Part shown: piece after piece, positions 97-58,150 of the stretch
Position numbering within the stretch: the stretch's first letter is position 1
How the letters are laid out: every line of letters starts with the position of its first letter
DNA from: Pseudomonas sp. stari2
GTDB taxonomy: Bacteria; Pseudomonadota; Gammaproteobacteria; Pseudomonadales; Pseudomonadaceae
Assembly: GCF_040760005.1 (NCBI RefSeq)
Contig: NZ_CP099760.1
Location: 3,777,501-3,841,500 of the forward strand
Length of the DNA: 64,000 nt
Direction: 5' to 3'
Position numbers and translations under genes: made by a program
The notes under the pieces: generated by a model
What the model saw: only the letters and a program-made list of their open reading frames with translations
Database searches by the model: none
What the model was told of the DNA's origin: nothing

Positions 97-1887
97 TCAA
101 ATGTAAGGCCTAAAAGCTTTCGCAATGACAACTCTAAGATTCTCAGGCACTCCCTCCCAGTTTTCTTCCCATTGCAAAGTATGCAAGTAAGCTTTAAACG
201 GCTTTTCAGAACTTGGAGCAGCATAACCAAGCAAATCTTCCATACACTCATGAATAACTTCAAGATTATCTACTTCCGCAACCGCATCTGCAATTGGCTT
301 GTTGAAGACTTCAGCTCCTGCTGTGCCCTGATCCCTATCATGAATAACGAAAAAATTCACACCAAGCGCAGTAAGATATTTAGCCAAGCCTATTATTGCC
401 GCTTTACCCCTCGCCTTGATGATCTCGGTGCATGACAAAACTTTTGCGCGTACATCGGGTGCCATCCTACGAATTGCTTCTTTTAAAACCAGCTCTTCCG
501 TATCGCCCTCTACAACGATAACTTTTCGGGTGAAAAATATTCGAGAAACGTGATCATCAAGCTTAATTAGCATCTTAACCTGATCCTTATCATTCCCTTG
601 GAGCAATCTAAATTTTTCAGAAACGGAGAATGGGTGAACGGTTGAGTGCCCCTCTTCATAACTAAAGCGATTCAACACCTGCCTAGGTTTTCTCGCCAAG
701 TCTATTAGGTAAGGAGAGTGAGTTGTCGCGACAATCTGGGACAGACCTCCAGATAACTCATAAATCAAATCTCTCATTTGGTTTGCAGCGCTGGGATGAA
801 GGAATATTTCAGGTTCCTCAAAACCGATTATTAATCCTCGCTCGTCATTACCACCTCTTTTTTTAAGCCATTGCTGCCGAAATCGTAGCAGTCCAAAGAC
901 CGCAGCACGAACCATTCCTGTGCCCTGATTAGCGATAGTTGTTCGTATATTGCTAGACATCTCTATTGAAAAAATTGGAATTAAAGATTCGGGACCAGAC
1001 AAGTCGGCCGAAGCAAAAATTTTTGACTCAGGAAACACTCCACAAAGGACAGCGTTTAGTTCCTGCATCATTTTTCCGAATTCAGAATCTGAATCCGAAG
1101 GATCAAGCTCCTTTGCGAGCATAATCAAGCTTTCCTGAGCAACCCTGTAGTGCTCAGATGTTTCCCTAACATCTTTAAAAAGCTCATTCAGTGTTTTATG
1201 CAGCACTCCAGCCTTATCAAACTCATGAGCTGCCGCCTCCGCTGGTATTAACAAAAAATTTGGTAATTTTGATAAAACAACCGCCGGAACCCCTCCTGGA
1301 TTCTTGTCCCAAACCTCATCTTCAGAAACATCCCATATCTCATCAATCAGCTCTAACTTCACACGTTCCGCTGCAGATATTTTTTTCTCAAGATCTTTAA
1401 ATAACTCAGCAAACGGCGCCGGATCAATCCCTCGCTCTAAAAACTCTACAGGCTTTGTTAAATTTAAGTATTCCTCCTTTATACTTCTTGCGTAAGACTT
1501 AAGCTCAATTACTACATCTTCTCCAAGGACATATGTTTTCCGATAAAAGATACTTCGCCCGGTTTCTCCTGTATCAATCGGATCGTATTGAAACAATCGC
1601 CCCTTAAATCCTCGCCAACCCACTGCACTATCCGGAACATTGCGAAACTCGGCTTCCAGAACGACAGTTTTGCAGGAGATCTTGTTTTCACCAGTCTCGG
1701 GATCGACTTCAGAACAATAAAAATGCGGCTCCATCCTAGTTTTTGCAGACAGCAACCACTCAATAGCTTTTAGCACTGAGCTCTTACCAGCATTATTTGC
1801 CCCAATTAAAAACGTTGCCTCTCCAAACTCAACATCCGCAGAATGTATGCGTTTAAAACCTTCGACCTTAAGCTTATGCAGTCTCAT
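97..1887 (-). CDS. OLD-family ATP-dependent endonuclease (AAA ATPase + TOPRIM)
   Basis: A 596-residue protein with an SMC/ABC-like ATPase module followed by a TOPRIM nuclease module. The Walker A motif GANNAGKSS lies at residues 29-37, the Walker B-like segment is GFEEPEIFLHP, and a TATTHSPY-type switch segment follows it. TOPRIM begins near residue 455 with VVEGDTEE and continues to a DRDQG acidic motif. OLD-family nucleases act in phage defence, for example P2 Old and GajA of Gabija. The gene is clearly richer in A+T than its neighbours and is flanked by related repeats, which suggests acquisition by transfer. A GajB-like helicase would lie downstream, beyond position 1, so the system type cannot be settled. 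The ATG start leaves the ATPase N-terminus intact. Confidence 0.85.
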   Translation of the reverse strand: MRLHKLKVEGFKRIHSADVEFGEATFLIGANNAGKSSVLKAIEWLLSAKTRMEPHFYCSEVDPETGENKISCKTVVLEAEFRNVPDSAVGWRGFKGRLFQYDPIDTGETGRSIFYRKTYVLGEDVVIELKSYARSIKEEYLNLTKPVEFLERGIDPAPFAELFKDLEKKISAAERVKLELIDEIWDVSEDEVWDKNPGGVPAVVLSKLPNFLLIPAEAAAHEFDKAGVLHKTLNELFKDVRETSEHYRVAQESLIMLAKELDPSDSDSEFGKMMQELNAVLCGVFPESKIFASADLSGPESLIPIFSIEMSSNIRTTIANQGTGMVRAAVFGLLRFRQQWLKKRGGNDERGLIIGFEEPEIFLHPSAANQMRDLIYELSGGLSQIVATTHSPYLIDLARKPRQVLNRFSYEEGHSTVHPFSVSEKFRLLQGNDKDQVKMLIKLDDHVSRIFFTRKVIVVEGDTEELVLKEAIRRMAPDVRAKVLSCTEIIKARGKAAIIGLAKYLTALGVNFFVIHDRDQGTAGAEVFNKPIADAVAEVDNLEVIHECMEDLLGYAAPSSEKPFKAYLHTLQWEENWEGVPENLRVVIAKAFRPYI

Positions 1888-2169
1888 CCATTTAACTCCA
1901 CATGAATAGTTTTTATTTAAACAACTCCACGCTTTAGAGCCCTCTCATGCCTAAAATAATCGACTACGGTGTCACGCAACTTAAAAATCATTAACCTTGG
2001 TAAAAATAGACCCAAATTCCACGACTCGCTGGACCAAATTTAAAAATAGGGAAATGGACGTATTCGGACGGAAAAGGGAGATGGGCTCTTCTCAAATAAC
2101 GAGTCCGCCTCCCTTTTCTGGAATCATGAAGGCAATGTGAAAGCATGCGTCCGCCCCCCCCCCCGGAGA
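1888..2169. other. A+T-rich intergenic region upstream of the OLD gene, with inverted repeat and poly-C tract
   Basis: No convincing gene is visible. The segment should hold the promoter of the OLD-family gene. It contains a 10-bp inverted repeat (GAAAAGGGAG at 2071-2080, CTCCCTTTTC at 2109-2118) and an uninterrupted run of eleven C at 2154-2164. The base composition resembles the OLD gene rather than the G+C-rich genes further right. Confidence 0.5.
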
Positions 2170-2212
2170 GAAAATAAATCTATCCCTTTTTGGTGCTGTC
2201 CCTTTTGGTGCC
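2170..2212. repeat. Half copy of the GGGGACAGATTTATTT palindromic repeat
   Basis: The string GAAAATAAATCTATCCC followed by two TTTTGGTGC-type units matches the right half and tandem tail of the element at 44355-44412, with a few changes. The matching left half is absent. Together with the copy at 1-50 it brackets the OLD-family nuclease gene. Confidence 0.6.
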
Positions 2213-2718
2213 ACAGAGGATGTTGGCGCTACCTAGCGAGTGAGGTGAAACGACAGTCCGCTTTTCGTTTTTCTTATCTCATCTGCTTGAAATTTCGTAG
2301 ATCGGTTCTAAATTTTCCGTGCACGCCTAGGAACCAAGCCGTTGGTTGCTAGCTGCCCCCATCTGAAAATCACCCACTTGGATATCGAGACAAGTATGTC
2401 AACTCACATCAAACCAGGCCCAAAACCAAAACGTGACGACGGAAAGGACGACAGAAGGCATCACGTTAACCCTCCAAACAAACCGAAACATCCAACGCTT
2501 CCGACTCACAAACCAGATAAATAACAAGTTTTTGGGGAACGGGAGGGTTCCGTAGTTACTTTGGAAGGAACCCTTACCAACGAGTGCTCTTCGCTTTACC
2601 GGCTAATCCACCGATACTCGCTCAATCTCATGCAAAATTTCTCGACTTAAACGGCCACGTTTAAAGTCACCAGCCGTAACTTCCCCAAGGCTACAACGCC
2701 TTGCGTCATTGCCTACGA
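2213..2718. other. Gene-poor stretch, no recognised function
   Basis: Apart from one weak short reading frame (2396-2524), I see no conserved gene, RNA gene or repeat here. The first part is of mixed composition. The last hundred bases lead into the conserved leader upstream of the DUF6124 gene. Confidence 0.4.
2396..2524 (+). CDS. Possible small basic, proline-rich protein (42 aa)
   Basis: An open frame from ATG encodes a Lys/Pro/His-rich peptide beginning MSTHIKPGPKPKRDD and ending KPTLPTHKPDK-like. No family is recognised. The upstream GAGACAAGT is a poor ribosome-binding site. The skewed composition could reflect a real small basic protein or chance, and no neighbouring gene supports it. 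Confidence 0.2.
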   Translation: MSTHIKPGPKPKRDDGKDDRRHHVNPPNKPKHPTLPTHKPDK

Positions 2719-2998
2719 CTACGCCAGAATCCGCCGGCTTGTGCGTCTGGCATGCGGGTCTTATCGTTTCGAGGTCACTGAAAATCAGTGATCGGGTTTG
2801 GTAGCCCGGTATTCCAGGCGCATGGCGCCACCTCTTTGCAGGGATTATTTTCGTCTCTGCTTCTTTATGGTGGCCGTGCGCAGGGCTTCTTCGGAAGCGC
2901 CGGGTTCCTGGACCGGTCTACCAACCTGAGCATGGCCACCACCTTACGTTTGGTAGCGAAGGGTGATGGCTCCTAGATTGCTTTCCAGGAGATACATC
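2719..2998 (+). promoter_or_regulatory. Conserved structured leader upstream of DUF6124 gene (copy A)
   Basis: This region is alignable with 57462-57739, which precedes the other DUF6124 gene. In order it holds an identical 27-bp block (2719-2745), a hairpin TCACTGA-AAA-TCAGTGA, CGGGTTTGGTAGCCCG (2793-2808), a GGTGGCC / GGCCACC pair, CCGGTCTACCAACCTG (2913-2928), and GTTTGGTAGC (2948-2957). The third-last element is the reverse complement of the TTGGTAG core in the other two, so it can pair with either. An AGGAG ribosome-binding site at 2987-2991 follows. A cis-acting RNA switch or a protein-binding array are both possible; the function is unknown. Confidence 0.55.
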
Positions 2999-3358
2999 AT
3001 GATCAAACCAACACCCAACCCACCCGAAACCGACCCAACCTCCCCCTACGAATCCCCCAATTCCAAAAAGCTCCACGACGCCGCCGAGCGTGCGCAGGAT
3101 CACTACCTCTTCCCCGCCGCCGGGGTCATGTCGTCCTGCAACGAGCCCGAGCGGATGTACCTGGCCAATCCGAAGTTCAACACCGAATGTTTGCTGGCCA
3201 ATGCCAGCGAAACCCTGAGTTCTGCGAGCGAGATGCTCAGTAACTTCGCCGCCCTGCTCGATCCCTCGAACCGCAAGACGGCGCTGGGTATTGCGCAGGT
3301 GGTGATGATTGCCGAGTTGGCGGTGAATCAGGCGCTGGATCACGTCGAAGTGGCGTAA
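2999..3358 (+). CDS. DUF6124-type protein, paralogue 1
   Basis: A 119-residue soluble protein of unknown function. It opens with a Pro/Thr-rich segment (MIKPTPNPP, then SPYESP), followed by two helical stretches ending in MIAELAVNQALDHV. It aligns over its full length with the protein at 57740-58129, sharing TPNPP, PTSPYE, SKK, LLA-ETL and AQ-VM-AELAVNQ. The start was chosen because AGGAG sits 7 bases upstream and the paralogue begins the same way; an upstream in-frame ATG at 2963 lies inside the conserved leader. The family assignment is from memory. The shared leader implies common control of both copies. Confidence 0.75.
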   Translation: MIKPTPNPPETDPTSPYESPNSKKLHDAAERAQDHYLFPAAGVMSSCNEPERMYLANPKFNTECLLANASETLSSASEMLSNFAALLDPSNRKTALGIAQVVMIAELAVNQALDHVEVA

Positions 3359-3369
3359 CCGGTTGGCTC

Positions 3370-3400
3370 CTGTAGAAGCAGTCGATGAATGCTTCTACAG
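3370..3400. repeat. Hairpin CTGTAGAAGCA / TGCTTCTACAG
   Basis: Perfect 11-bp arms with a 9-base loop lie just after the DUF6124 stop codon. There is no T-run, so it is a weak terminator candidate. A related hairpin at 7691-7722 shares TGTAGA and GCTTCTACAG, suggesting a dispersed REP-like family. Confidence 0.5.
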
Positions 3401-3439
3401 CGTGATTCCCTCAGTACTTTGCCTCCCCAACGCTCCTGA

Positions 3440-3595
3440 AATCGCGAGGTGACACGCCTGCTTATCCCCTTTCAAAGCGTGTGCACGTATCCTTGCGCGA
3501 ATTCGGGCGTCTTGGTTGAGCCAGTCACAGGACAAGTGGTTGCGGATTCATTGGATGAAGAGCTGGAGGCGTTTTCGCATTGGGACATTTTCTGA
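3440..3595 (+). pseudogene. Possible C-terminal remnant of a toxin-like gene
   Basis: An open frame with no good start encodes a peptide containing VEPVTGQVVADS and ending EELEAFSHWDIF, then TGA. It overlaps the TTG start of the next gene by 16 bases, as toxin and immunity pairs often do. The composition looks protein-like, but no family is recognised and nothing upstream extends it. It is either a degraded 3' end or chance. Confidence 0.25.
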
Positions 3596-3936
3596 CTGAG
3601 CCACAGCTGACCGAGGTCAGAGCTGCACTCTCCTGGCCTTTCAACGACTTTCCGGTGGAGTATGACTACGTAGCGAATAAGGTTAGAGGCGTCGATCCTG
3701 ACGTACTTTATGAAATCCTTTATTCAGAAGTCGCACCGGTCTGCTTCACCAATCTCGCAGCAGTCTTGCCCACTGTCTGGACAGGCTTTGATCCTGACTC
3801 GCTCAGAGCCTCGATAGAGGAAAGGCTGGCAGCCAGACAACGTAACTGGTTCCGCCGGCAGTTCGATAAGGCCTTGGTTCGCTGGCTGAAATACAACTAC
3901 GGCTACATCTGGAAGGAAATCTCCTCCAGACTTTGA
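3580..3936 (+). CDS. DUF7079-like small protein, possible orphan immunity protein
   Basis: A 118-residue soluble protein with a helical N-terminus, a central EILYSEVAPVCFTNL motif and WTGFDPDSL, ending in a basic helix (RRQFDKALVRWLKYNYGY). The pattern of a short helical domain with E-x-x-PV-x-x-NL followed by x-GFD resembles what I recall of DUF7079 proteins. The frame has only a TTG or later alternative start, so its N-terminus is uncertain. The preceding coding remnant ends inside it, consistent with a toxin/immunity arrangement that has decayed. Confidence 0.5.
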   Translation: MGHFLTEPQLTEVRAALSWPFNDFPVEYDYVANKVRGVDPDVLYEILYSEVAPVCFTNLAAVLPTVWTGFDPDSLRASIEERLAARQRNWFRRQFDKALVRWLKYNYGYIWKEISSRL

Positions 3937-3979
3937 ATGCCATCGGGAAAATTCACAGGCGCTCTGTCAGAACCATCAA

Positions 3980-4321
3980 ATGAAACTAAAACCACTCTTC
4001 ATCAGCCTCCTCTGCTGCATCAGCACCCTGTCCCACGCAACCGACGTCCCGATCAAAGAACACATGCCCTTTGTAACCGCACGAAAGGCCTTGATCAAAA
4101 ATGGCTGGAAGCCGAACCCGACCTACACAGGTGAATACGGGGTCGAAAACATCCTCCAGAGAAAAGGCTTCACTGAAATCGAGTCGTGCACGGTGGGTCT
4201 TCAATTCTGCAGTTTCAACTACGTCAGGAACGGCGTCTGCCTGGGCGTGGCGACTGTCGGGGAAGAGGTCAAAGACATGAAGGTCTATTCCTGGAACTTC
4301 AAATGCCCTGACCAGGATTGA
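3980..4321 (+). CDS. Small secreted protein of unknown function
   Basis: A 113-residue protein with a clear Sec signal peptide (MKLKPLFISLLCCISTLSHA, cleavage near residue 20). The mature part has four Cys (SCTVGLQFC, NGVCLG, FKCPDQD) that could form two disulfides in the periplasm. The motif FVTARKALIKNGWKP resembles a repeat seen in small pseudomonad exported proteins, but I do not recognise a named family. It stands alone between the DUF7079-like gene and an AraC regulator. Confidence 0.6.
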   Translation: MKLKPLFISLLCCISTLSHATDVPIKEHMPFVTARKALIKNGWKPNPTYTGEYGVENILQRKGFTEIESCTVGLQFCSFNYVRNGVCLGVATVGEEVKDMKVYSWNFKCPDQD

Positions 4322-4432
4322 GATCCCTTTTTAATGGTCACGCCTCAAGCGGACATCTAAATACCTGCACTTGTATATTCCCGACAGACAGATCTTCACC
4401 ACTAACGCGCTGAATCAGGAAGGCACACGTTT

Positions 4433-5257
4433 ATGGATCAGAAAAATGGCCAGGCTGGCAATGTCGACTGGGTCATCCGCAGTGTTCAACCTGGAGGGAT
4501 CGAGCGAATCGAAGCGTGGTTTGGCAGCCACGGCTACGATCCGCATCGCCATGACACCTATTCGATCGGTCGAACGTTGGCAGGCGTGCAGAGCTTTCAC
4601 TACAAAGGCTCGCTGCGCCACGGTGTTCCCGGCAACACGCTCGTGCTTCACCCCGACGAACTCCACGATGGTATGGCCGGCACCGATGCAGGCTTTCGTT
4701 ACCGTATGGCCTACGTTGATCCCGCACTAATCCAGAACATCTTGGGGGGAGAACCCTTGCCCTTTATCGCGGGGGGAATTTCGAGCGATCCGCGTCTGTT
4801 CCATGCCAGTGCAGCTTTCATGCAAGCAATGGATCATCCACTGGAGACACTGGAGGAACAGGACGCGCTATTTGACTTGGCAATGGCGTTGCGTGCCGTC
4901 GGTGGCAAGCCACGCGGGCGCAAGCGTCTGGATTACTGTGCAGCCGAGCGCGCCAGAGTGTTCATCCTGGAACATCTGCATTCATGCATTACGCTGGAGA
5001 TGCTGGAGCGTGCCAGTGGGCGCGAACGCTGGAGCCTGTCACGCGACTTCAGAACGCTTTACGGTACGAGCCCTTACCGATTCGTCACCCTGCGCCGCCT
5101 GGATCGGTTCCGCGCATTGGTGCTTGAAGGTTTCACTCTGGTGGATGCCGCCCTCGTCGCGGGTTTCCACGATCAAAGTCATATGACGCGACACTTCACT
5201 CGCTGCTACGGAATACCACCCATGCGCTGGCTGGAACGATTGCGGGCCGCACGCTGA
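4433..5257 (+). CDS. AraC-family transcriptional regulator
   Basis: A 274-residue regulator. The N-terminal cupin-like sensor domain carries PHRHDTYSIG near residue 37 and LHPDELHDG near residue 75. The C-terminal double helix-turn-helix domain spans about residues 170-270, with LEMLERASGRERWSLSRDF and a second helix pair AALVAGFHDQSHMTRHF. This architecture matches AraC regulators that bind a small ligand in the N-domain and often control an adjacent gene. A cupin gene follows on the same strand after 72 bases, but no shared operator is evident. The ligand is unknown. Confidence 0.85.
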   Translation: MDQKNGQAGNVDWVIRSVQPGGIERIEAWFGSHGYDPHRHDTYSIGRTLAGVQSFHYKGSLRHGVPGNTLVLHPDELHDGMAGTDAGFRYRMAYVDPALIQNILGGEPLPFIAGGISSDPRLFHASAAFMQAMDHPLETLEEQDALFDLAMALRAVGGKPRGRKRLDYCAAERARVFILEHLHSCITLEMLERASGRERWSLSRDFRTLYGTSPYRFVTLRRLDRFRALVLEGFTLVDAALVAGFHDQSHMTRHFTRCYGIPPMRWLERLRAAR

Positions 5258-5329
5258 CTTGCAGGATCGTACAAGAGTGCCCTGCTCCATGCGCTATAGG
5301 CTGGCGACTTCAACCACAGAGGATCCGTC

Positions 5330-5716
5330 ATGTCAGTGCACCGTCATCACCAATCATCAGTTCCTGTAAACCTGATACGTAAGGTTTCGCTCATCGAACA
5401 GCAATGGAGCCCCAGGGTTGTTGCAGAGATGAATGACTACCAGTTCAAGGTTGTGCGAATCGAAGGCGAATTCATCTGGCACTCACATCCTGAGACCGAC
5501 GAAGCATTTCTTGTCCTGGAGGGCACCCTGCGCATAGACCTGCCGGAAGGCTGCGTCTATGTGAATCCGGGTGAACTCTATGTGGTACCCCGTGGCGTTG
5601 AACATCGGACGGCTGCTAAAGGTGAAGCAAAACTGATGATGATCGAGCCACGAGGTATTTTGAACACCGGACATGAAGATGACGAAAGAACGGCCTTGAA
5701 TGACGTCTGGATATAA
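5330..5716 (+). CDS. Cupin-domain protein
   Basis: A 128-residue single-domain cupin. Motif 1 is [15 protein letters not shown] (metal-binding His, Glu) and motif 2 is [14 protein letters not shown]. Such proteins bind a metal in a small beta-barrel and may be isomerases, dioxygenases or binding proteins, and the substrate cannot be read from sequence. It follows the AraC gene on the same strand and converges with the DUF2256/photolyase pair. The 3' end overlaps an antisense extension of the DUF2256 frame. Confidence 0.8.
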
Positions 5717-5985
5717 TCCAACGCCATCCTGTGCAATGTCTGCGCTGAGTTGAAAATAGTTGAACTTGACCGGCAGCTTGATAACAGCCTGATCAAGGGC
5801 ATCGATTTCGCGTCGGATATCCTCCATGCCGGCGCACTCTTCAAGGGTGGGTGTGTTGATTTACTACGCCGGCAACGCTCCGAGCAGTAGCGCACGTCCT
5901 CCCAGCAGCGAGCCCATTTCTTCCGCCATGTGAATGGCAAGCCGCAGGTCGCGCAGGTTTTGACGGGCAGCTCACTTTTTTTCAC
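5578..5985 (-). CDS. DUF2256 zinc-ribbon protein with aberrant C-terminal extension
   Basis: The first 43 or so residues are a typical DUF2256 domain: [19 protein letters not shown] followed by RYCSERCRR, with two CxxC-type pairs suited to zinc. The GTG start overlaps the stop codon of the photolyase gene, so the two are translationally coupled. Family members normally stop soon after CRR. Here the frame runs on for about 90 residues antisense to the cupin gene, with no family similarity. A shifted frame would stop at once (TAG TAA). The extension is therefore probably the product of a deletion that removed the native stop codon. Confidence 0.6.
5738..5857 (-). pseudogene. Fragment of a chorismate-mutase / PchB-like gene
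   Basis: In a second frame overlapping the DUF2256 tail, the peptide [18 protein letters not shown] continues as [10 protein letters not shown]. This closely matches the N-terminus of AroQ-type chorismate mutases and isochorismate pyruvate lyase PchB. There is no start codon (ATC at the expected place) and similarity fades after about 35 residues. Both ends are lost, so this is a remnant lying between photolyase/DUF2256 and the cupin gene. Confidence 0.55.
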
Positions 5986-7523
5986 AGCGACTCACCATCG
6001 TCTAATTGCTTGAGCAACCATTCGCCGCGTTGCCAAAACGCCTGTTGTTTGGCTTCCGGCATGCGGTCGAGGTTTTTGTAGATGATGCTCATGCGTTGAT
6101 TGCCGCGCAGTCGGTCGCCGTGACGCATTAGAAAGTGCCAGTAGAGCGAATTGAAAGGGCAAGCGTCGTCTGTGGTGCTTTCGCTCACTTTGTAGGCGCA
6201 GCCACGGCAATAGTCGGACATGCGCTTGATGTATTGGCCGCTCGCACAATAGGGTTTGGAACCGAGATAGCCGCCATCGGCGTGCATGACCATGCCCAGC
6301 GTATTGGGCAGTTCCACCCAGTCGAAGGCGTCCATGTAAATCGCCAGATACCACTCACATATTTCACTCGGAGCGATACCGGCGAGTAGTGCGAAGTTGC
6401 CGGTCACCATCAATCGCTGGATGTGGTGGGCGTAGGCATGTTCCAGGCTCTGGTTGATGGCCTGGCGCATGCAGTTCATCTGTGTTTGCCCCGTCCAGTA
6501 GAACTCTGGAAGCGAACGCGTATTACCAAAGGCATTTCCCTGGGCATAGTCAGGCATCTTCAGCCAGTAGACACCCCGGACATACTCACGCCAGCCGATC
6601 AGTTGCCGAATAAAGCCTTCGGCGGCGTTGAGTGCAATGCTGCCGGACCAATAGGCAGATTCCACATCGCTGCAAAGCTTACGAAGATCCAGCAAGCCGA
6701 TATTCAGTGCCGCGCTGATACGCGCATGAAACAGAAACGGCTCATCGCTGGCCATGGCGTCTTGATAGTCGCCGAAGGCTGCCAGCCCCCAATCGAGAAA
6801 GTACTCCCACAGGGCCTGCGCTTCGGCGTGGGTGACCGGATAGTCGAACGTATCGAGGGCGCCGTAGTGGCCGGAAAAGTTGTTGGAAACTAACGCAAGC
6901 ACCTCACGGGTGATTGCATCTGGCGTAAAACGGGCTGGCGAAGGCGGCCTGACACCCTTGGGCAAGGCTTTGCGGTTTTCCGCATCAAAATTCCAGGCGC
7001 CTCCGACCGGGCTGCCGTCGCCATTGAGCAACAACCTGCTCTTGCGGCGCATCTCTCGATAAAAGAACTCCATGCGCAGCTGTTTTTTGCCCTGCGCCCA
7101 TTGAGCGAACTCGGCACGTGAGCAAAGAAAGCGATTATCGCAATGCCAGTGGATCGCCAGGCCACAGTCCCTGAGCGAATGCTCCAGTCGCCAGTCACCG
7201 CACTCTGTCATGTGCAGTTCATCCGGCTGTAGACGTGAGTGCCAGCGGTGCAACTCGCTCGGCACGGATCCGGTATTTTGCGGATCATCGAGCGTTACGT
7301 ACTGCACCTTGACGCCTCTCTGCCGCAAGGCTTCGGCGAAGTGGCGCATGGCGCTGAATATGAGGGCGATCTTTTGCGGATGATGAGGAACATGGCTAGC
7401 CTCCTCCATCACCTCGACCAGCAGCACCGTATCGCTGTGTTGATCCAGCACCTGCAGAGAGGCGAGATCGAACGATAACTGGTCGCCCAGGACGAGGCAC
7501 AATCGGCGAGTCGTGTTCATCAA
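5982..7523 (-). CDS. phrB: FeS-type cryptochrome/(6-4) photolyase
   Basis: A 513-residue flavoprotein of the prokaryotic FeS-BCP/CryPro class, repairing UV-induced (6-4) photoproducts with light. The N-terminal antenna domain starts [13 protein letters not shown]. The C-terminal catalytic half contains [24 protein letters not shown] and GNFALLAG. Cysteines in [16 protein letters not shown] and [11 protein letters not shown] match the four 4Fe-4S ligands known from Agrobacterium PhrB. DUF2256 follows with overlapping start and stop codons, a common pairing. Two TGTACA palindromes lie about 85-115 bases upstream of the start. ATG at 7523 or 7520 is equally possible. Confidence 0.9.
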
Positions 7524-7607
7524 TCAGGTTCCAGTTGATGGGGGCGTTCAGGCTGACTGCGTAGAGTTGATCCACTGAACGGCTTTCAACAAGCGAGAGC
7601 CTGAATT

Positions 7608-7634
7608 CTTGTACAAGAGCACTAAAATGTACAA
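7608..7634 (-). promoter_or_regulatory. Paired TGTACA operator-like sites upstream of the photolyase
   Basis: CTTGTACAAG (7608-7617) and TTGTACAT on the minus strand (7627-7634) place two TGTACA cores 18 bp apart, upstream of the photolyase gene. On the minus strand they read TTGTACA-N11-TTGTACA. This is a candidate operator or promoter overlap. A MerR-type light regulator (LitR/CarH class) is a guess from context. Confidence 0.35.
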
Positions 7635-7690
7635 TTTTATTGCAAGAGATTGGCTGGCCACACCATGAAATCAGCCCAGGCGTGGCGCCG

Positions 7691-7722
7691 TGTAGAGGCG
7701 GCCGATGGCTGCTTCTACAGCC
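7691..7722. repeat. REP-like hairpin TGTAGAGGC...GCTTCTACA
   Basis: An imperfect hairpin with G-T pairs lies just downstream of the glycosyltransferase stop codon and is related to the one at 3370-3400. It may serve as a transcription end for the minus-strand gene, but has no T-run. Confidence 0.45.
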
Positions 7723-7724
7723 AT

Positions 7725-9134
7725 TTACCAAAACCAATACGGCAAAAACTTCGGCGTAGGCTCGATCATCAGTTCCAGGTGATAAGTGATCGGATTGAAG
7801 AAAAACATATCCAGAATCAAAAACGCCCCTACCCCAAACGACAACGTCATGAACTCGCGATAAGGATGTTCAGCAAAGTACTCGCGTTTGGCGTGATAGA
7901 AGCTCAACAGCGCAATCAATCCCAACCCTGCGCCCAGGTAGTTGGGCTGTAACGGGACTTCGGCGAAGTTGTTGTAGACCAGCACCGACACCAGCATCCC
8001 CAACCCAAGCATGGGCAACTTCAGGCAGAACTTCAGCAGGCCGTTTTTGGCGCGCACGAACGCGGCTTCCTGGCTGACAAAGATATACGCGGCCAGCAGT
8101 GAAATGGCCGGGGTGATTGCCAGGATGTAGCGTGCTTTTTTGGAACTCGGGATGGTGAACAGCACCAGCAGCACCAACAGCCACCCGGTCAGATAGAGCA
8201 ACAGGTCGATGTCTTTGTCACGGGTCGGGCGGAAGAACAATTTGTACTTCTGCAGGATCACGTTGATGGCGTAAAACACCGTGAAGCCATAGGTAAACAG
8301 GCCTGCGGAGAAGTAGAAGTAATAGCGCGGCGCGTGGTCGGAGCCGAAGCGGCCGATGCCCTGCATGTTAAGCATGTCTTCGAGGAACGTTTGCCCCCCT
8401 TGCAGGTACGCCGCCCAGGCCAGCAGCACAACTCCGGCGGCCAGGATCAGGCCCGACAGAAATGAAAACAGCAGTAGCATGCGCCATTGGCGGCTCAGCA
8501 AGTAATAAGCCCCGATGACGCAAGCGGGCCCTATCAAACCGATCGGCCCACGAAACGCAAAGCCCAGCGCCAGCCCGACGAACAGAAAAGCCAGGCGTCG
8601 CGGGTCTTTTTTCAGTTCGGCGGAATAGGCCACGTAGAAGCACATCACCGTAAACAGCGCCGGGTAGATATCCAGTGCCAGCGAGTTCACGCCGTCGAGA
8701 AAGGCCCAGGTCAACAGGCTGAAAAGCACGCCGTACGCGCCCCACCTCTTGCTGTGCAGCGCCCCCAGCCGATAAATGAACACCAGCATCAGGGACGCGG
8801 CCACGCAGGACGGAAATCCCATGGAAAGTATCGACACCCGGCCGAAAGGCAAGGAAACCAGATAGACCAACAAGGTATTGAGGACGGTGTAGTCGGGATA
8901 AGGCTTGAGGTCGTCTGCAATGGGAAACAGCGTGACGCCGTGCTGCAACATGTACTCGGCAAAGTCGACAAAGCGTGTTGTGTAGTTGAGGACAGCAGGT
9001 TTGTACTGCAACACCATGAACACGGTCAGTGTCGTGAAGAAAATGCTCAGGCATGGATTTCTTGTAATCAATCCCTTCAACATGCCGGCCCGCCAAGTGC
9101 GCTCTACAACAAGCGGGGCATCATATCGATCCAT
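7725..9134 (-). CDS. ArnT-like membrane glycosyltransferase (PMT/GT83 superfamily)
   Basis: A 469-residue integral membrane protein with roughly ten to twelve hydrophobic segments. The first extracytoplasmic loop after TM1 carries an acidic motif (RFVDFAEYM) in the place where PMT/ArnT enzymes hold catalytic acids. A second feature is DGVNSLALDIYPALF in the middle of the protein. The family transfers sugars from polyprenyl-phosphate donors to lipids, glycans or proteins. The start was placed at ATG 9134, preceded by AAGGG; an in-frame GTG upstream adds 19 polar residues. It stands alone, so the acceptor is unknown. Confidence 0.7.
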   Translation of the reverse strand: MDRYDAPLVVERTWRAGMLKGLITRNPCLSIFFTTLTVFMVLQYKPAVLNYTTRFVDFAEYMLQHGVTLFPIADDLKPYPDYTVLNTLLVYLVSLPFGRVSILSMGFPSCVAASLMLVFIYRLGALHSKRWGAYGVLFSLLTWAFLDGVNSLALDIYPALFTVMCFYVAYSAELKKDPRRLAFLFVGLALGFAFRGPIGLIGPACVIGAYYLLSRQWRMLLLFSFLSGLILAAGVVLLAWAAYLQGGQTFLEDMLNMQGIGRFGSDHAPRYYFYFSAGLFTYGFTVFYAINVILQKYKLFFRPTRDKDIDLLLYLTGWLLVLLVLFTIPSSKKARYILAITPAISLLAAYIFVSQEAAFVRAKNGLLKFCLKLPMLGLGMLVSVLVYNNFAEVPLQPNYLGAGLGLIALLSFYHAKREYFAEHPYREFMTLSFGVGAFLILDMFFFNPITYHLELMIEPTPKFLPYWFW

Positions 9135-9303
9135 CGTTAACCCTTTAGTGAAGTTGTTCTTTTGGCCACCATCCTGAAAGCCCGGATACACCGGAATTAA
9201 TGTTCTGCTTTCCGGGAAGTTGAATTTGAGCCTAGCCCACAGCGGGGACTATTCAAGCATGACGCGCCCCAACACTCCCTGAACAAGATGGATGAAAGTC
9301 AAC

Positions 9304-9355
9304 AAAAAAGCCCGGCCATAGACTCTCGTCATCCACGAGAGTCTATGGCCGGGCT
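9304..9355 (-). terminator. Strong intrinsic terminator after the PixA-like gene
   Basis: Perfect 21-bp arms (9309-9329 and 9335-9355) with a 5-base loop are followed on the minus strand by TTTTTT. It lies 14 bases past the stop codon of the PixA-like gene. Confidence 0.9.
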
Positions 9356-9368
9356 GTGTACTTTTCAG

Positions 9369-9890
9369 TTACTGGTTATTCACGGTGATGTAGGGATCCC
9401 AGGTGTGGTCTGTGCCAATCTGGTTAAGGTCACGGTCGTACAGGGCGAAGTTGATGGTGTACCAGAGTTTGCCTGGATTCAGAGCAGTGGCTTGCCACAG
9501 GGAGTACGTCACATCGGTTTTGGAAATACCGCCGGGAGCCCCCTTGTTCAGATAGATCACCACACCGGGCACGTTGAAAGAGATAGGTGGAGAGATGGTG
9601 CCTCTGTAATCGCCGCCCTGGTGTGGGTCGCCGGGCTGGACGTTCTTGATTTGTGCGATGCGATCGAAGTTGCGCGACAGCGTGGTGGCACGCCAGCGGA
9701 TGTTGTCGCCGGTTTTGACATCGATCCACAGCTCGTTGCCGCCTTCGCCGGTGTTGCCGCTGGCATGTGGATCGACGGCATCGCGCGTCACCAGCATGGA
9801 AATCGCACCGCCAACGTCGTTGGGATGGGCAATCAGGTAGTCGGCATCGATGTTGACGAGCACGTCGTAAGTATTGGTCGCACTGGACAT
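9369..9890 (-). CDS. AidA/PixA-family inclusion-body protein
   Basis: A 173-residue soluble beta-rich protein. It begins MSSATNTYDVLVNIDADYL and contains MLVTRDAVDPHASGN, GNELWIDVKTGD and DDTVRW-like IRWRATTLS, ending WDPYITVNNQ. This matches the PixA/AidA family, which forms cytoplasmic inclusions in Xenorhabdus and is quorum-regulated in some proteobacteria. The start at 9890 has an AGGAGC ribosome-binding site; a longer frame adds 20 unrelated residues. A strong terminator follows directly, so it is probably expressed as a single gene. Confidence 0.8.
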   Translation of the reverse strand: MSSATNTYDVLVNIDADYLIAHPNDVGGAISMLVTRDAVDPHASGNTGEGGNELWIDVKTGDNIRWRATTLSRNFDRIAQIKNVQPGDPHQGGDYRGTISPPISFNVPGVVIYLNKGAPGGISKTDVTYSLWQATALNPGKLWYTINFALYDRDLNQIGTDHTWDPYITVNNQ

Positions 9891-10012
9891 TTTGCTGCTC
9901 CTTGATGGAATGGCATGAACGACCGCGCCCGCAAAGGCTGTCCGGCTCATCCGGTCCCTGGATGCGGTCTGCGAAGAACGATAGGAGATGGTTGGATGGT
10001 GTCAACGTGCGA

Positions 10013-10288
10013 TCAGTTGACGCGGAAAAAATGCAGCGAAATACGCCGCTGCCAAAGCGTTGATCCAGGACTGTCCAAGTCGATCCCCTCATCGACTACG
10101 AGGCATTTTCTGACACGTTGAACCGCCGAAAACATATAGACGTTGCCGGTATTCACCGAATGGCATGTACCTGAAACCCCGCCATCGCCCAATGACGACA
10201 ACAACAAGGAATATGGATAGTATTGCGGCGTTTTTTCCCAGCATTCAAAACGGACGAAAGCTGATTCCACAATGAAAACATCGCTCAT
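10013..10288 (-). CDS. Hypothetical protein (91 aa), doubtful
   Basis: An open frame starting MSDVFIVESAFVRFECW, with a composition plausible for a folded protein and ending LHFFRVN. No family is recognised. It starts 17 bases inside the divergently read cytochrome c gene, which leaves no room for separate promoters and counts against it. It ends about 120 bases upstream of the PixA-like gene on the same strand, so it could be a leader gene of that unit. Confidence 0.3.
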   Translation of the reverse strand: MSDVFIVESAFVRFECWEKTPQYYPYSLLLSSLGDGGVSGTCHSVNTGNVYMFSAVQRVRKCLVVDEGIDLDSPGSTLWQRRISLHFFRVN

Positions 10289-10652
10289 TGTCTTGATGAC
10301 TGTCGCGCTATCAATTCAAACCACACACGTCTTCGCCGATAACACCAACGGCAAGAACCTCTACGTTCAAAGATGCGCCGTGTGCCACGGACCCGATATC
10401 AAGGGAACAGGCCCACTGGCCCATAAAAGCAATCCACCGACACCTGATCTGACAACACCTGCCTTCAAGAAACGGCTCAATGACTATCCGGGCGTGATCG
10501 TCTCTTCGATCATCCTTCGCCCGAACGGAGACCTGATTCCAAAAACCTTGCGCGAGAATGGTGTGAAGATCCCGCCGCATGCCTGGAGCGTCAGCGATTT
10601 TCGCGATTTGAATCAGTACATGAACGATGTCATTTCAAAAAAGCAGCACTAA
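10272..10652 (+). CDS. Small periplasmic c-type cytochrome
   Basis: A 126-residue protein with a signal peptide ending near TTHVFA and one haem-binding motif CAVCHG. The domain has class I cytochrome c layout: haem motif near residue 36, then GTGPLAHKSNPPTPDL, ending WSVSDFRDLNQYMNDV. The usual axial Met in a KMPPH-type loop is replaced by Ile (VKIPPHAW), which would alter haem ligation unless a nearby His or a later Met substitutes. The gene appears single, so its redox partner is unknown. Confidence 0.75.
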   Translation: MKTSLIVLMTVALSIQTTHVFADNTNGKNLYVQRCAVCHGPDIKGTGPLAHKSNPPTPDLTTPAFKKRLNDYPGVIVSSIILRPNGDLIPKTLRENGVKIPPHAWSVSDFRDLNQYMNDVISKKQH

Positions 10653-10670
10653 GCTGGACAACTATACCCT

Positions 10671-11174
10671 TCAGCGTTCGTCGGCCTTTTTGTCGGCGCC
10701 CTTTATGTTTTCAATCAGGTCAACGACATAGTCTTGATTGAAGCCCGCCACGAATGACCAGAACAGCAACTTGGCGTAGGCCGCGTACCCTTCCGCATGT
10801 TGGCAAAAAATATCGTTGAAGATTTGCTTCAAACATTTCGGATCGTCGTCCGGAACGATCACCGGAAACAGATCACCCCTGATAACGCCGGAAAGGAACA
10901 AGAGATACAAGAGCCCCGCCAAAATGCCGCCTATGAATGAAGGCAGTATCAAAGCGAACCAGGATTTGGAGAGGTTTTCGATTTCCGGATCGGTCAGTAT
11001 CGACAGTCGTCTGTGAAACCCTACGTAGCCCCCGATATTCCCGGCGATACATACAATAAAGGGCACTTTGTAATCGGGCAGACTGTAAGTGACGGCAATT
11101 GCCAGCAACAACAGGGCTATGAAAATCCAGAATATCCGCTTCCAGATGATGTTTAGGTCGTCCTGACGATTCAT
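10671..11174 (-). CDS. Membrane protein of unknown function
   Basis: A 167-residue protein with about four transmembrane segments: IFWIFIALLLLAIAVTY, VPFIVCIAGNIGGYVGF, LILPSFIGGILAGLLYL, and LLFWSFVAGFNQDYVVDL. A cytoplasmic charged tail ends GADKKADER. The FNQDYVVDLIENI ending resembles small membrane proteins found in many Proteobacteria without assigned roles. Start at 11174 is supported by GGGAGC 8 bases upstream; earlier in-frame starts lack this. It converges with the cytochrome gene. Confidence 0.65.
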   Translation of the reverse strand: MNRQDDLNIIWKRIFWIFIALLLLAIAVTYSLPDYKVPFIVCIAGNIGGYVGFHRRLSILTDPEIENLSKSWFALILPSFIGGILAGLLYLLFLSGVIRGDLFPVIVPDDDPKCLKQIFNDIFCQHAEGYAAYAKLLFWSFVAGFNQDYVVDLIENIKGADKKADER

Positions 11175-11318
11175 GATCAGCTCCCTGATCCTGGCCATGT
11201 GTTGATCTTCATGACGATAGACGAATCCTGTCGCCCGCATGGAAGATCAAACCGAAAATGCCTCGAAAGTCCGCTTCTAAAGCAACACGCACCCTCGCGG
11301 CATATCGGATGCCGCCGC

Positions 11319-11975
11319 TCAGCCCAACCGCATCGACACTTCAATGTCATCGGCAAACGGCACGCTGAGATAGCCATTCTCTGGCAAGCGCACATGGGCC
11401 AGGTATTCCGGGCAGTAGTCGGTGTTGTCGGCGATCACCAGCGCGCCAGGTCGCAGGTGCTTTTCAACCAGCTTCAACACGTCGCCATACAACGCCTTGG
11501 CGCCATCGAGCAGCAACAGATCGACCGTGTCCGGCAGGCCGCTCGCCAAGGTCACCAGCGCGTCCCCTTCGCGAATTTCAATCAAATCACTGACGCCACC
11601 CTCAATAAAGTGATGCCGCGCCAGTTCGACTTTCGACGGTTCGAATTCGCTGCCGATCAGCACACCTCCGCCGTTGTCCCGCAGGGCCGCTGCCAGGTGC
11701 AGGGTCGACAGGCCGAACGACGTGCCGAACTCGACAATGGCTTTCGTCTTGCTGCTGCGCGCCAGCATGTACAGCAGTTTTCCGGTGTCGCGGGAGACGG
11801 GCAGCCACAGGTCTTTGAGCATGCCGTACAGCTCGCGGTACTCGGTTTTGCTGTGCATCAGGCGCTCGCGTTCTTCGTTGGATACGGAATTCAAAACCGG
11901 GCTGGTGGCGGCGCTGGCCTGGGTGTAGAGGCGTTCGATCAGGGTTACCAGAGGTTCGGTGGTCAATGTGGTCAT
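11319..11975 (-). CDS. Class I SAM-dependent O-methyltransferase
   Basis: A 218-residue cytosolic methyltransferase of the catechol-O-methyltransferase-like group (COG4122 type). Motif I is VEFGTSFGLSTLHLA near residue 82, the acidic residue after strand 2 is in GSEFEPSK, and DLLLLDGAK near residue 153 carries the metal/acceptor-side Asp. A further motif, VIADNTDYC, is typical of these enzymes. A TetR gene is divergent across a 112-bp gap, so TetR control of this methyltransferase is likely. The substrate is unknown. Confidence 0.8.
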   Translation of the reverse strand: MTTLTTEPLVTLIERLYTQASAATSPVLNSVSNEERERLMHSKTEYRELYGMLKDLWLPVSRDTGKLLYMLARSSKTKAIVEFGTSFGLSTLHLAAALRDNGGGVLIGSEFEPSKVELARHHFIEGGVSDLIEIREGDALVTLASGLPDTVDLLLLDGAKALYGDVLKLVEKHLRPGALVIADNTDYCPEYLAHVRLPENGYLSVPFADDIEVSMRLG

Positions 11976-12087
11976 GGTGGTTTTCCGTCAGTCGAGGGCT
12001 AAAATGCGAATGATTCGTCGCGTTTAAATGATGCGAGCGAATGGCCCGATTCGCTATTCGCATTCCCTCTTCACGCCTGAGCCGACC

Positions 12088-12720
12088 ATGACCGACCGCC
12101 AGACCGCCCGTATTTCCTCACGCAAACAACCGCAACAGGCCCGCTCCGCCGAGTTGGTTTCGGCGATTCTTGAGGCGGCTATTCAGGTTTTGGCCAAGGA
12201 AGGCGCTGCCCGATTCACCACAGCGCGAGTTGCGGAGAAGGCTGGCGTGAGTGTTGGCTCGCTATATCAGTACTTCCCGAACAAGGCGGCGATTCTGTTT
12301 CGATTGCAGAGTGATGAGTGGCTGCAGACCACGGAGATGCTGCAGCGGATTCTGCAAAATCGGGATGCGCCGCCACTGGACCGTCTCCGCACGCTGGTGC
12401 ATGCGTTCATTCGTTCGGAGTGTGAGGAGGCGCAGATGCGCGGCGCACTGAGCGATGCAGCGCCGCTTTATCGCGATGCGCCCGAGGCTCATGAAGTGCG
12501 GGCGGCGGGCAAACGAACCTTTGAGGCGTTCATGGTTGAGTTGCTGCCCGAGGCGAGTGAATCCACTCGCACACTGGCCTGCGATCTGATCCTGGCCACA
12601 CTCAGTTCGGTGGGGAAGGATTTTTCACTCAGCCCGCGTACTGACGAGGAAATCACCGCGCGTGCGGACGCGATGGCGGACATGTTTCACGCTTACGTGG
12701 TTTCGCTCGATGCCAGGTAA
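12088..12720 (+). CDS. TetR-family regulator, divergent from the O-methyltransferase
   Basis: A 210-residue repressor. The N-terminal helix-turn-helix reads FTTARVAEKAGVSVGSLYQYF around residues 38-58, followed by the all-helical ligand domain. An ATG at 12088 gives the standard short basic arm (MTDRQTARISSRKQPQ); the frame could extend 20 residues upstream, into the promoter region. It probably represses the divergent O-methyltransferase and itself. The 3' end overlaps the convergent mug gene by 28 bases. Confidence 0.85.
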   Translation: MTDRQTARISSRKQPQQARSAELVSAILEAAIQVLAKEGAARFTTARVAEKAGVSVGSLYQYFPNKAAILFRLQSDEWLQTTEMLQRILQNRDAPPLDRLRTLVHAFIRSECEEAQMRGALSDAAPLYRDAPEAHEVRAAGKRTFEAFMVELLPEASESTRTLACDLILATLSSVGKDFSLSPRTDEEITARADAMADMFHAYVVSLDAR

Positions 12721-13202
12721 AGCTGTCGGTACGCCGTCACCAGTTGCTCCTGGTTGAACGCCAGATTGCGGCCGCTGGGGTTGGGCAGGATCCACACCGC
12801 AGTGCCGCCGAACGTGGTGTCTTGCAGCCCCCATTCAACCGACTTATTACCGGACAACCCGGCATAGGCAGCCTTGCCGAGAAACGCCACGAAGCGCGGC
12901 GAATACCGGGCGATCTTGCGTTCGAAATTCGCAGCCGCAGCGGTGAATTCGTCCGCCGATAACTGATCCGCCCGGGCCGTCGCCCGCTCGACCACAGCGG
13001 TCAGCCCGCAATGAAATTCCAGAATCGAGCGATCGTTTTCCGGGCTCACCTCATGCGGTGTGAACCCGGCCAGATGCAACGTGCGCCAGAACCGATTGCT
13101 TCGCCCCGCGAAGTGATGCCCCTGCTCCGCCGCCAGAAGGCCGGGGTTAATGCCGCAGAACACCACAGCAAGGCCTTCGGTCAGGACGTCTTCCAATCCC
13201 AT
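12693..13202 (-). CDS. mug: G/U mismatch-specific DNA glycosylase
   Basis: A 169-residue DNA repair enzyme that removes uracil or ethenocytosine opposite guanine. The catalytic-site motif is VVFCGINPG near residue 13, where Asn is the catalytic residue in E. coli Mug, and the intercalation motif region is NPSGRN near the C-terminus. SNRFWRTLHLAGFTP also matches. ATG 13202 follows GAGG at a suitable distance and gives the same N-terminal length as E. coli Mug. It overlaps the TetR gene at its 3' end and adjoins a second TetR gene upstream. Confidence 0.9.
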   Translation of the reverse strand: MGLEDVLTEGLAVVFCGINPGLLAAEQGHHFAGRSNRFWRTLHLAGFTPHEVSPENDRSILEFHCGLTAVVERATARADQLSADEFTAAAANFERKIARYSPRFVAFLGKAAYAGLSGNKSVEWGLQDTTFGGTAVWILPNPSGRNLAFNQEQLVTAYRQLYLASSETT

Positions 13203-13209
13203 AAAAACC

Positions 13210-13833
13210 TCAGCCACAGATGACGCTGACGGCGTTGCGTGCCTGAGCGGTCAGTTCCTCGCGGGATTTACCGGCCCGGGCGCGGATCGAGATGCTGTGC
13301 AGCAGCGATGACGCGAGCATGGCCAGTGCAGCGAGATCGGTATCGGGTTTCAGTTCGCCGGTATCAAGTGCCTTCTGCAAGCGGGCTTCCAGATCCGCAT
13401 CGAGCTGGCTGAGTCGTAGGGACAGCACCTTGCGGATTTCAGGGTCTTCGACGGCTTCAGTAGTCGCCGTGCCGATCGCGAAACAACCACGGGGCTGGCC
13501 ATCACCGGAAAAGTAGATTGCCAATTGCCCTTCGTAAAAACCGGTCAGCGCCTGCTCCAGAGTCAGGTTGCTGTCGTTCAAAGCAGCCTGCATCGCGGCG
13601 TGGGCGGTTTCCCAATATTGGTCGAGTGCCTTGATGTAGAGCGCATGTTTGTCGCCGAACGCGGCGTACAGGCTGGGGCGATTCATGCCGGCGGCGGTGG
13701 CGATGCTGTCCAGTGAAGCAGCCGAATAACCGGTATTCCAGAACACGCCAAGCGCCTGTTGCAGCGCGGTTTGCGGGTCGTAGGCACGCGGGCGGCCACG
13801 GCCTTTTCCTTCTGTCGGTTTATTTTGTGCCAT
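13210..13833 (-). CDS. TetR-family regulator, likely repressor of the EmrAB-type pump
   Basis: A 207-residue protein. A Lys/Arg-rich N-terminal arm (KPTEGKGRGRPRAYD) precedes the helix-turn-helix LDSIATAAGMNRPSLYAAFGDK; the ligand domain contains GCFAIGTATTEAVEDPE, typical of the AcrR/NemR-like C-terminal domain. It is divergent from the HlyD/MFS/OprM-type pump operon, a classic local repressor position. The intervening 250 bp hold two inverted repeats that could be its operators. Confidence 0.85.
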   Translation of the reverse strand: MAQNKPTEGKGRGRPRAYDPQTALQQALGVFWNTGYSAASLDSIATAAGMNRPSLYAAFGDKHALYIKALDQYWETAHAAMQAALNDSNLTLEQALTGFYEGQLAIYFSGDGQPRGCFAIGTATTEAVEDPEIRKVLSLRLSQLDADLEARLQKALDTGELKPDTDLAALAMLASSLLHSISIRARAGKSREELTAQARNAVSVICG

Positions 13834-13843
13834 GTCGTATAAA

Positions 13844-13914
13844 TTCCTTGCAGGAAAGATTGGTCGCTCATATTCTTACACCATCGCACAAAATTAAGGA
13901 ACCAGAAATTCCTT
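13844..13914. promoter_or_regulatory. Candidate TetR operator pair
   Basis: Two inverted repeats related by sequence: TTCCTTGCAGGAA (13844-13856) and AAGGAA-N7-TTCCTT (13896-13914). Both lie between the TetR gene and the divergent efflux operon, close to the TetR start. They share the TTCCTT/AAGGAA half-site, as expected for one regulator binding twice. Confidence 0.45.
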
Positions 13915-14083
13915 GATCGGCAGGTTTGTTGTAACAGCGCTCGTACCGGGGCTGGCGACGACGAAACAGCGGCAGCGGAGCCACCCTCCCACACCGCGCA
14001 CGGACTTGATGACGCACAGCTTTTAACGACGCCCGGGCCGCTGACGAATTCGCACAGGGACCCAGCCCTTTGGAGTACCGATC

Positions 14084-22555: not shown

Positions 22556-22594
22556 TCCGGCAAGTTGACGAGCGCCCATCCGGATGTTCAGATG

Positions 22595-22782
22595 CCGCCC
22601 TGTTTCAGGTGTCCCATGCCGCCGTGCATGGGGTGAAACGGGAAACCGGTACGTTCTTTTCGAACAAGTCCGGTGCTGCCCCCGCAACGGTAGGCGCGTG
22701 ATGCTTTCGATACACCACTGTGGCCAGACGGCCATGGGAAGGTGAAAGCGTCCATACGCGCGAGCCCGGAGACCGGCCTGAA
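22595..22782 (+). promoter_or_regulatory. Cobalamin riboswitch
   Basis: The segment carries the conserved cobalamin-riboswitch landmarks in order: GAAACGGGAAACCGGT, GGTGCTGCCCCCGCAACGGTA (the B12 box core, near 22672-22692), and AGCCCGGAGACCGGCCT near the 3' end. It lies directly upstream of btuB and should shut the operon off when adenosylcobalamin is abundant. A longer BtuB reading frame runs through it, but that N-terminus is not real. Confidence 0.93.
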
Positions 22783-22887
22783 ATTCTGTTTGGCAAACTC
22801 CTGCGGTGGGCGGGCATGGGCCGGTGTCGGCGTGTGCGCGATGCCTTCTCCTGCATGCTCTTCTGCGAAGATCCTTTCGAGAAGACA

Positions 22888-48229: not shown

Positions 48230-48280
48230 GGGATGGACTCCGGATCAGAACAAGAGTCCATGGTCGCGCTTGCTCGGGGT

Positions 48281-58129: not shown

Positions 58130-58150
58130 TCCCTAGCACCGCAATACCCT

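Follow-up and report, generated by a model that had tools for sequence, protein, structure and literature searches.

C4-type antisense RNAs with matching target codes in leaders of DUF6124 genes of Pseudomonas

The window analysed here, a stretch of 64,000 nucleotides from the genome of Pseudomonas sp. stari2, contains two leaders (copies A and B), each followed by a gene encoding a DUF6124 protein, as the first-pass annotation had stated. Three short motifs are present at both loci and their variable base changes in step, with TTGGTAG at motifs 1 and 3 and CTACCAA at motif 2 in copy A, and TTAGTAG and CTACTAA at the same places in copy B. The hairpin that had been described in front of motif 1 was recovered in both forms, TCACTGA-AAA-TCAGTGA in copy A and TCACTG-ATTTC-CAGTGA in copy B. 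The heptamer TTRGTAG occurs nine times in the window for 3.09 occurrences expected, a number reached in one of 100 shuffles, and six of these nine are the motifs of copies A and B. What kind of element makes three motifs change together? The first-pass annotation had proposed either an RNA switch with competing helices or one protein reading three sites.

Anatomy of the two leaders

In both copies, motif 2 sits inside a C4 antisense RNA detected by the Rfam model RF01695 (cut-off 45 bits), and motif 1 of copy A is part of a c4-a1b1 element (RF03163, 47.6 bits for a cut-off of 46.7). Motif 1 corresponds to the a1 target, motif 2 to the a′ segment and motif 3 to the a2 target, in the order annotated in the c4 region of phage P1 (a1 at 48255-48261, b1 at 48269-48276, C4 at 48343-48419, a2 at 48423-48429, b2 at 48452-48459 and icd, whose product is annotated as a cell division inhibitor, from 48470). 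The Rfam C4 match of P1 (48337-48422) encloses the annotated c4 and served as the basis for the mature ends proposed here. The same leaders contain a second co-varying trio, b1/b′/b2, which had been overlooked previously, and b2 overlaps the ribosome-binding site of the DUF6124 gene. The parts of the two copies are as follows.

2646-3408, + strand: whole cassette of copy A (leader, C4 and DUF6124 gene), a homology unit with limits taken from locus L088
2723-2741, + strand: conserved promoter-region element of copy A, GCCAGAATCCGCCGGCTTG, with 17 matches in the genome at no more than one mismatch
2739-2767, + strand: putative promoter of copy A, TTGTGC-17-TATCGT, proposed from the spacing between its −10 box and a1
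2775-2791, + strand: hairpin 1 of copy A, inside the RF03163 match at 2761-2812
2798-2804, + strand: a1 of copy A (motif 1, TTGGTAG), in the loop of the hairpin CGGG-TTTGGTAG-CCCG
2813-2818, + strand: b1 of copy A (TCCAGG), complement of b′
2863-2946, + strand: C4 antisense RNA of copy A (RF01695, 77.1 bits)
2869-2943, + strand: probable mature C4 RNA of copy A, with ends placed by analogy with P1 c4
2906-2912, + strand: b′ of copy A (TCCTGGA), a C4 loop complementary to b1 and b2
2918-2924, + strand: a′ of copy A (motif 2, CTACCAA), complementary to a1 and a2
2950-2956, + strand: a2 of copy A (motif 3, TTGGTAG)
2984-2990, + strand: b2 of copy A (TCCAGGA), complement of b′, overlapping the Shine-Dalgarno sequence AGGAG at 2987-2991
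2999-3358, + strand: DUF6124 gene of copy A, 119 aa (PF19619, 68.4 bits, cut-off 27)
57333-58292, + strand: stretch with copy B that is absent from an empty site in the related genome G368
57519-57535, + strand: hairpin 1 of copy B, inside an RF03163 match at 57505-57556 (27.1 bits, below the cut-off of 46.7)
57542-57548, + strand: a1 of copy B (TTAGTAG)
57562-57566, + strand: b1 of copy B (GAAGA, just 5 nt)
57607-57695, + strand: C4 antisense RNA of copy B (RF01695, 68.3 bits)
57613-57692, + strand: probable mature C4 RNA of copy B
57653-57661, + strand: b′ of copy B (TTCTTTTCC)
57667-57673, + strand: a′ of copy B (CTACTAA)
57701-57707, + strand: a2 of copy B (TTAGTAG)
57732-57740, + strand: b2 of copy B (GGAAAAGAA), complement of b′, at the ribosome-binding site
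57740-58129, + strand: DUF6124 gene of copy B, 129 aa, or 127 aa from the second ATG at 57746 (PF19619, 59.3 bits)

The leaders thus resemble the C4 systems of phages P1 and P7 in fold, in the order a1-b1-C4-a2-b2-ribosome-binding site, in complementarity and in spacing. They differ from the P1-type immunity operon (c4-icd-ant) in what follows, since no antirepressor gene is found downstream of the window copies and DUF6124 stands there instead. The pairing proposed in the first-pass annotation is therefore upheld, but the element is of the known C4 type and not a new switch. Two details argue against this assignment: the c4-a1b1 match of copy B falls below the Rfam cut-off, although its a1 hairpin is present, and b1 of this copy matches over just 5 nt. 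In copy A, a weak hairpin of terminator type separates b1 from C4 (2838-2860), but it is not above chance (one found for 0.8 expected). The window also contains an ordinary cobalamin riboswitch (22590-22795, + strand, 113 bits).

Matching codes among leaders

Two loci alone could match by descent. The genome (6.31 Mb, one contig) encodes 32 C4 matches, 31 of them above the cut-off. One C4-like match of 45.2 bits (L055b) is followed by no such gene, and no a1b1 or a2 context was seen around it; it was left out of the code tests, the folding and the leader sets, leaving 31 leaders. Across these 31 copies, 92.6% of the cells in the C4 stems are paired (34.7-48.8% in slid controls), and 16 of the 27 pairs of the three-stem fold present compensatory changes, with substitutions on both sides. 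The a′ loop can base-pair with a2, and the b′ loop with b2 at the ribosome-binding site, in copies A and B as well. At the start expected from RNase P processing of a longer transcript, the predicted C4 has GGC in 18 of the 31 copies and GGT in 13, a further point against reading them as C4 operons: the C4-like RNAs described in Acinetobacter baumannii start mostly with GGW, two of them with GGC, and RNA-seq indicated apparent processing at GGW (PMC5320573).

The a′ segments (9-11 nt) of the 31 leaders are of 23 distinct types, and a1 and a2 change with them, which argues against a match by mere descent. The longest perfect complement of a′ measures on average 7.16 nt in its own a1 window versus 4.44 nt in those of other leaders, and 7.03 versus 4.03 nt in the a2 windows. 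For b′, the corresponding values are 6.29 versus 4.49 nt (b1) and 6.71 versus 4.21 nt (b2). For each of the four pairings (a′-a1, a′-a2, b′-b1 and b′-b2), the sum observed over the 31 leaders was not attained in any of 20,000 permutations; in control windows located 315-400 nt upstream and 300-360 nt downstream, the observed sum was reached in 1,779 to 16,010 of 20,000. Duplexes with a2 and b2 have a combined energy of −23.1 kcal/mol for cognate and −13.5 kcal/mol for non-cognate combinations. The own target is the best one for 26 of the 31 antisense RNAs and the own antisense RNA is the best one for 23 of the 31 targets (25 and 21 with another alignment). The weakest of the four pairings is the one with b1, the own b1 being the best by energy in 8 of the 31 leaders.

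According to the first-pass annotation, a lack of compensatory changes in homologous leaders would refute the RNA-switch reading; such changes were found, in this genome as well as in leaders from elsewhere. We used two genomes of the same genus, G019 (best 30 of 42 C4 matches) and G010 (best 30 of 36), in each of which none of 10,000 permutations reached the observed value for any of the four pairings. The own target is the best one for 29 of 30 antisense RNAs and the own antisense RNA for 25 of 30 targets in G019; the corresponding numbers are 20 and 24 of 30 in G010, where a non-cognate target outdoes the own one for 10 of the 30 antisense RNAs, indicating that the codes are not fully private. 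A mixed set comprised 70 leaders with less than 90% identity (31 of our own and 39 from named species), one identical leader having been removed from 113. Each pairing was again reached in none of 10,000 permutations. Compared with the nearest relative carrying a different antisense RNA, the own pairing is better in 60, 58, 52 and 56 of the 70 leaders for a1, a2, b1 and b2, respectively (sign test, p ≤ 1.5e-5). An exact 7-nt complement of a′ is present in both the a1 and the a2 windows in 59 of the 70 leaders, and one of at least 6 nt in 67. The three remaining leaders are L019, in which a single base of a2 differs, giving a G-U pair, L120_m, a degenerate reverse-strand match, and L167, which contains Ns. 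Leaders with shared codes are part of this mixed-species set, and the own target ranks first in just 34 leaders, the own antisense RNA in 32. No selection for insulation between codes was shown, cross-pairing being seen in 156 of 2,670 combinations within genomes versus 349 of 5,520 between genomes.

These data bear on two alternative readings. A recent duplication of a single leader would make the in-step change inherited rather than selected; the cassettes are indeed paralogues with shared a′:a1:a2 cores, CTACCAA being common to 21 of the 70 leaders. This reading is contradicted by the permutations and by the nearest-relative sign tests, the 31 b′ loops of this genome are all distinct and cognate pairing is the best one for 26 of 31; we regard duplication as practically excluded. 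One protein reading three sites, on DNA or RNA, would account for repeated motifs of about 7 nt, and the conserved 19-bp element of the promoter region may well be a protein site of its own. As there are 21 different 7-nt cores in 31 leaders, with complementarity kept, whereas a shared site would stay constant, this second proposal of the first-pass annotation lacks support and appears very improbable: the sites vary from locus to locus and complementarity alone is retained.

Folding, promoter region and proposed mode of action

The C4 fold (by covariation), the order of the parts and the matching codes are shown here. We consider it highly probable (about 0.88) that each leader is a C4-type antisense RNA operon controlling its DUF6124 gene. 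In phage P1, cleavage of the leader releases the c4 RNA, which binds the target mRNA through its a′ and b′ loops, b′ partly over the ribosome-binding site (PMC5320573). Given the similar anatomy of the leaders, DUF6124 is predicted to be kept off by its own C4. A putative promoter just 5′ of hairpin 1 would produce a single transcript containing, in this order, hairpin 1, the a1 hairpin, b1, the C4 RNA, a2, b2 with the ribosome-binding site and the DUF6124 sequence. The C4 portion would fold into a three-stem RNA and would then be excised as in P1. Binding of the a′ loop to a2 and of the b′ loop to b2 would cover the ribosome-binding site and switch DUF6124 off, and this silencing would operate in trans as well as on the own message. 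In the uncut transcript, a1 and b1 would pair with a′ and b′, unfolding or soaking up C4, and the gene would be made.

Predicted folding agrees in part with this scheme. Of the 31 minimum-energy folds predicted for the leaders, 17 show a′ paired with a1 and one shows it paired with a2; in the remaining 13, it is paired with neither target. For copy A, a′ pairs with a1 when 2772-3001 is folded; with other ends, it counts as pairing with neither (probability 0.26). Copy B adopts the canonical C4 fold with a′ unpaired. Competition of a1/b1 with the C4 fold for a′/b′ in cis is plausible in view of the 17 leaders with a1 pairing, and Salmonella IsrK provides a precedent for it. Pairing of a′ with a2 in cis is hardly predicted, its probability being 0.12 in a single leader and 0.00 in the other 30, so that C4 would most likely meet a2 in trans.

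The same folds bear on a purely cis-acting leader, in which two alternative helices, a1:a′ or a′:a2, would expose or mask the ribosome-binding site and no antisense RNA would be released. The frequent a1:a′ pairing is what such a leader would show, and the IsrK-orf45-anrP region of the Salmonella prophage Gifsy-1, a tested case, offers a precedent: as described in PMC4825925, structures A and B are used there together with IsrK in trans, the upstream hairpin segment pairing with the middle helix and the short form activating in trans. The near absence of predicted a′:a2 pairing speaks against it, and covariation of the C4 stems points to a three-stem RNA in its own right, which a simple attenuator would not need, so that we hold this cis-only reading to be unlikely. 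The C4 leaders resemble the Salmonella system in having an upstream segment that can pair with the middle one. They differ from it in that the matches to the IsrK RNA model (RF01394) at the two window copies score 34.7 and 20.0 bits, below the cut-off of 50, and in that the gene downstream in Salmonella encodes a predicted antirepressor (PMC4825925).

The 19-bp element of copy A overlaps the presumed −35 box. Allowing one mismatch at most, the genome contains it 17 times, in 16 cases before a C4 locus; when up to three mismatches were allowed, 20 matches were obtained for the element and four for the reversed pattern. This element may serve several loci as an operator or as part of their promoters. 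The one copy without a C4 nearby (G000:C1:2527752-2527770) is possibly a remnant. The distance from the −10 box of the putative copy A promoter to a1 is 36, compared with 37 for P1c4 in phage P1; a consensus promoter scan reported no promoter at copy A.

Cassettes in the genome, the genus and mobile elements

The 32 C4 matches of the genome, which has 24 DUF6124 matches, are mostly followed by genes for small proteins. DUF6124 comes directly after 21 of them and a DUF3077 gene after three (L003, L005 and L006), five precede proteins of about 100 aa without Pfam match (L019, L027, L029, L030 and L056r) and one (L001) is followed by a gene for a BRO-N protein, a family that includes antirepressors. 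In L020, the reading frame after C4 begins like DUF6124 and stops at 60 aa. Three of the DUF6124 matches lack a C4 within the stretches that were scanned: one that looks truncated at its N-terminus, one near a PrrF sRNA match and one other. The PrrF match (154.8 bits; L057:3027-3174, corresponding to G000:C1:4277526-4277673) lies just 3′ of the DUF6124 gene lacking a C4. In L003, a 19-codon reading frame lies 50 nt after C4 and stops 4 nt short of the DUF3077 start, an arrangement reminiscent of translational coupling of the icd/orf45 type. A P-N/D-P-P motif (e.g. KPTPNPPE) was often noted at the start of the proteins encoded after C4, in the downstream genes of L002-L030, including the Pfam-less L030, and in genomes G019 and G010.

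A common origin of DUF6124, DUF3077 and the L056r family was considered and found no support in profile comparisons (hhalign probability 0.35-0.55%). The sole link is a DUF3077 member scoring 20.3 bits against DUF6124 (E 5e-4; cut-off 27), and both Pfam labels occur on three of 41 DUF3077 relatives. The predicted structure of DUF6124 (mean pLDDT 72.1, pTM 0.45) contains two confident helices (62-86 and 89-114); a fold search with this model gave no match at E ≤ 0.001 in PDB or BFVD, and no solved structure was matched at the sequence level with E up to 1. PADLOC detected no defence family among four proteins submitted.

We detected C4 in 32 of 36 Pseudomonas genomes (this one included), with copy numbers from 0 to at least 42, which are lower bounds since no more than 62 candidates per genome were scored, under stricter filters; in the same genomes, DUF6124 is present in 28 (up to 43 copies) and DUF3077 in 26. 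Copy numbers of C4 and DUF6124 are correlated (Spearman 0.83, n = 36; 0.90 with DUF3077 added), kinship being uncorrected in these values. Among 21 genomes from other families of the order, four have C4 (up to six copies) and none has DUF6124 or DUF3077. C4 was found in 17 of 273 other genomes of a class-wide sample, where no more than 15 candidates per genome were scored and copy numbers are again lower bounds, and in none of 14 control genomes. The named DUF6124 homologues among 120 listed of 1,029 are all from Pseudomonas except one labelled Streptomyces, and 80 named loci (80 of 493) are all from Pseudomonas. A full C4 lies just 5′ of DUF6124 in 77 of these 80 loci; in the other three, the contig end cuts the leader, the 5′ half of C4 is lost or there is no upstream sequence. 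The second of these (L139:1300-1510), in which a′, a2 and b2 remain before DUF6124, is a natural C4-broken allele.

A prediction published in 2010 (PMC2864571) already gave C4 RNAs and c4-a1b1 elements for Proteobacteria and phages; according to PMC5320573, it included Pseudomonadales. Similarly to the set described here, Group 1 C4-like sRNAs of A. baumannii are present in many copies per genome (21 there) and have a variable a′ loop; unlike that set as described, for which no targets are given (PMC5320573), the 31 C4s analysed here are flanked by matching a1 and a2 and then by a small-protein gene. The difference from P1, where a single copy precedes icd/ant, is that there are 32 matches on one chromosome, mostly before DUF6124, DUF3077 or unnamed small proteins. 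Among the papers retrieved from an open-licence library, we found none that ties C4 to DUF6124 or DUF3077. The kind of RNA is known, and the amplified set of cassettes, most of which carry a matched code of their own ahead of a small-protein gene, looks like a new form of it. A textbook phage immunity RNA would here be available in a single genome as a large natural collection of antisense RNAs with their matching targets, in which the specificity rules of C4, the role of a1/b1 and the functions of several small-protein families become directly testable; the set also hints at where to seek the targets of C4 RNAs that are multi-copy in other bacteria, A. baumannii among them.

The C4-DUF6124 units look like accessory cassettes. 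Long matches among the copies of this genome delimit a shared unit that begins about 160-225 nt 5′ of C4 and finishes near the DUF6124 stop, with an extension of up to about 110 nt past this stop in a few pairs. For copy A, similarity to named relatives begins at 2643-2691 and stops at 3340-3408 (among 40 of 87 matches listed), and the nearest relatives adjoin other genes. In three named loci, a relative of copy A is found directly after a DUF7079 gene; in the window, a DUF7079 relative lies downstream of copy A. At the empty site of G368, the flanks matching 56600-57332 and 58293-59000 (83% identity each) are 31 nt apart; no target-site duplication was seen there by eye. Tentatively, genomes of the genus could harbour a repertoire of dozens of cassettes with largely private codes, each a small selfish or immunity unit whose C4 would silence its own DUF6124-type protein as well as incoming elements with the same code. 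If so, many "heteroimmune" groups would coexist in one chromosome, as P1 and P7 do as phages.

At E ≤ 1e-5, a search of 72,556 plasmids gave no DUF6124 relative, and 50,697 phage records gave one, at the record edge of Pseudomonas phage DVM-2008. In IMG/VR, a C4 match accompanies 73 of 80 DUF6124 loci (80 of 86), many of which lie at the edge of their contig and may represent flanking host DNA. One of these loci (L284) has a gene for a phage tail assembly chaperone (Phage_TAC_7) about 1 kb away from the cassette. Several IMG/VR loci (L284, L288, L325, L327, L329 and others) present tandem C4s, with a second, often weak, C4-like match about 500 nt upstream.
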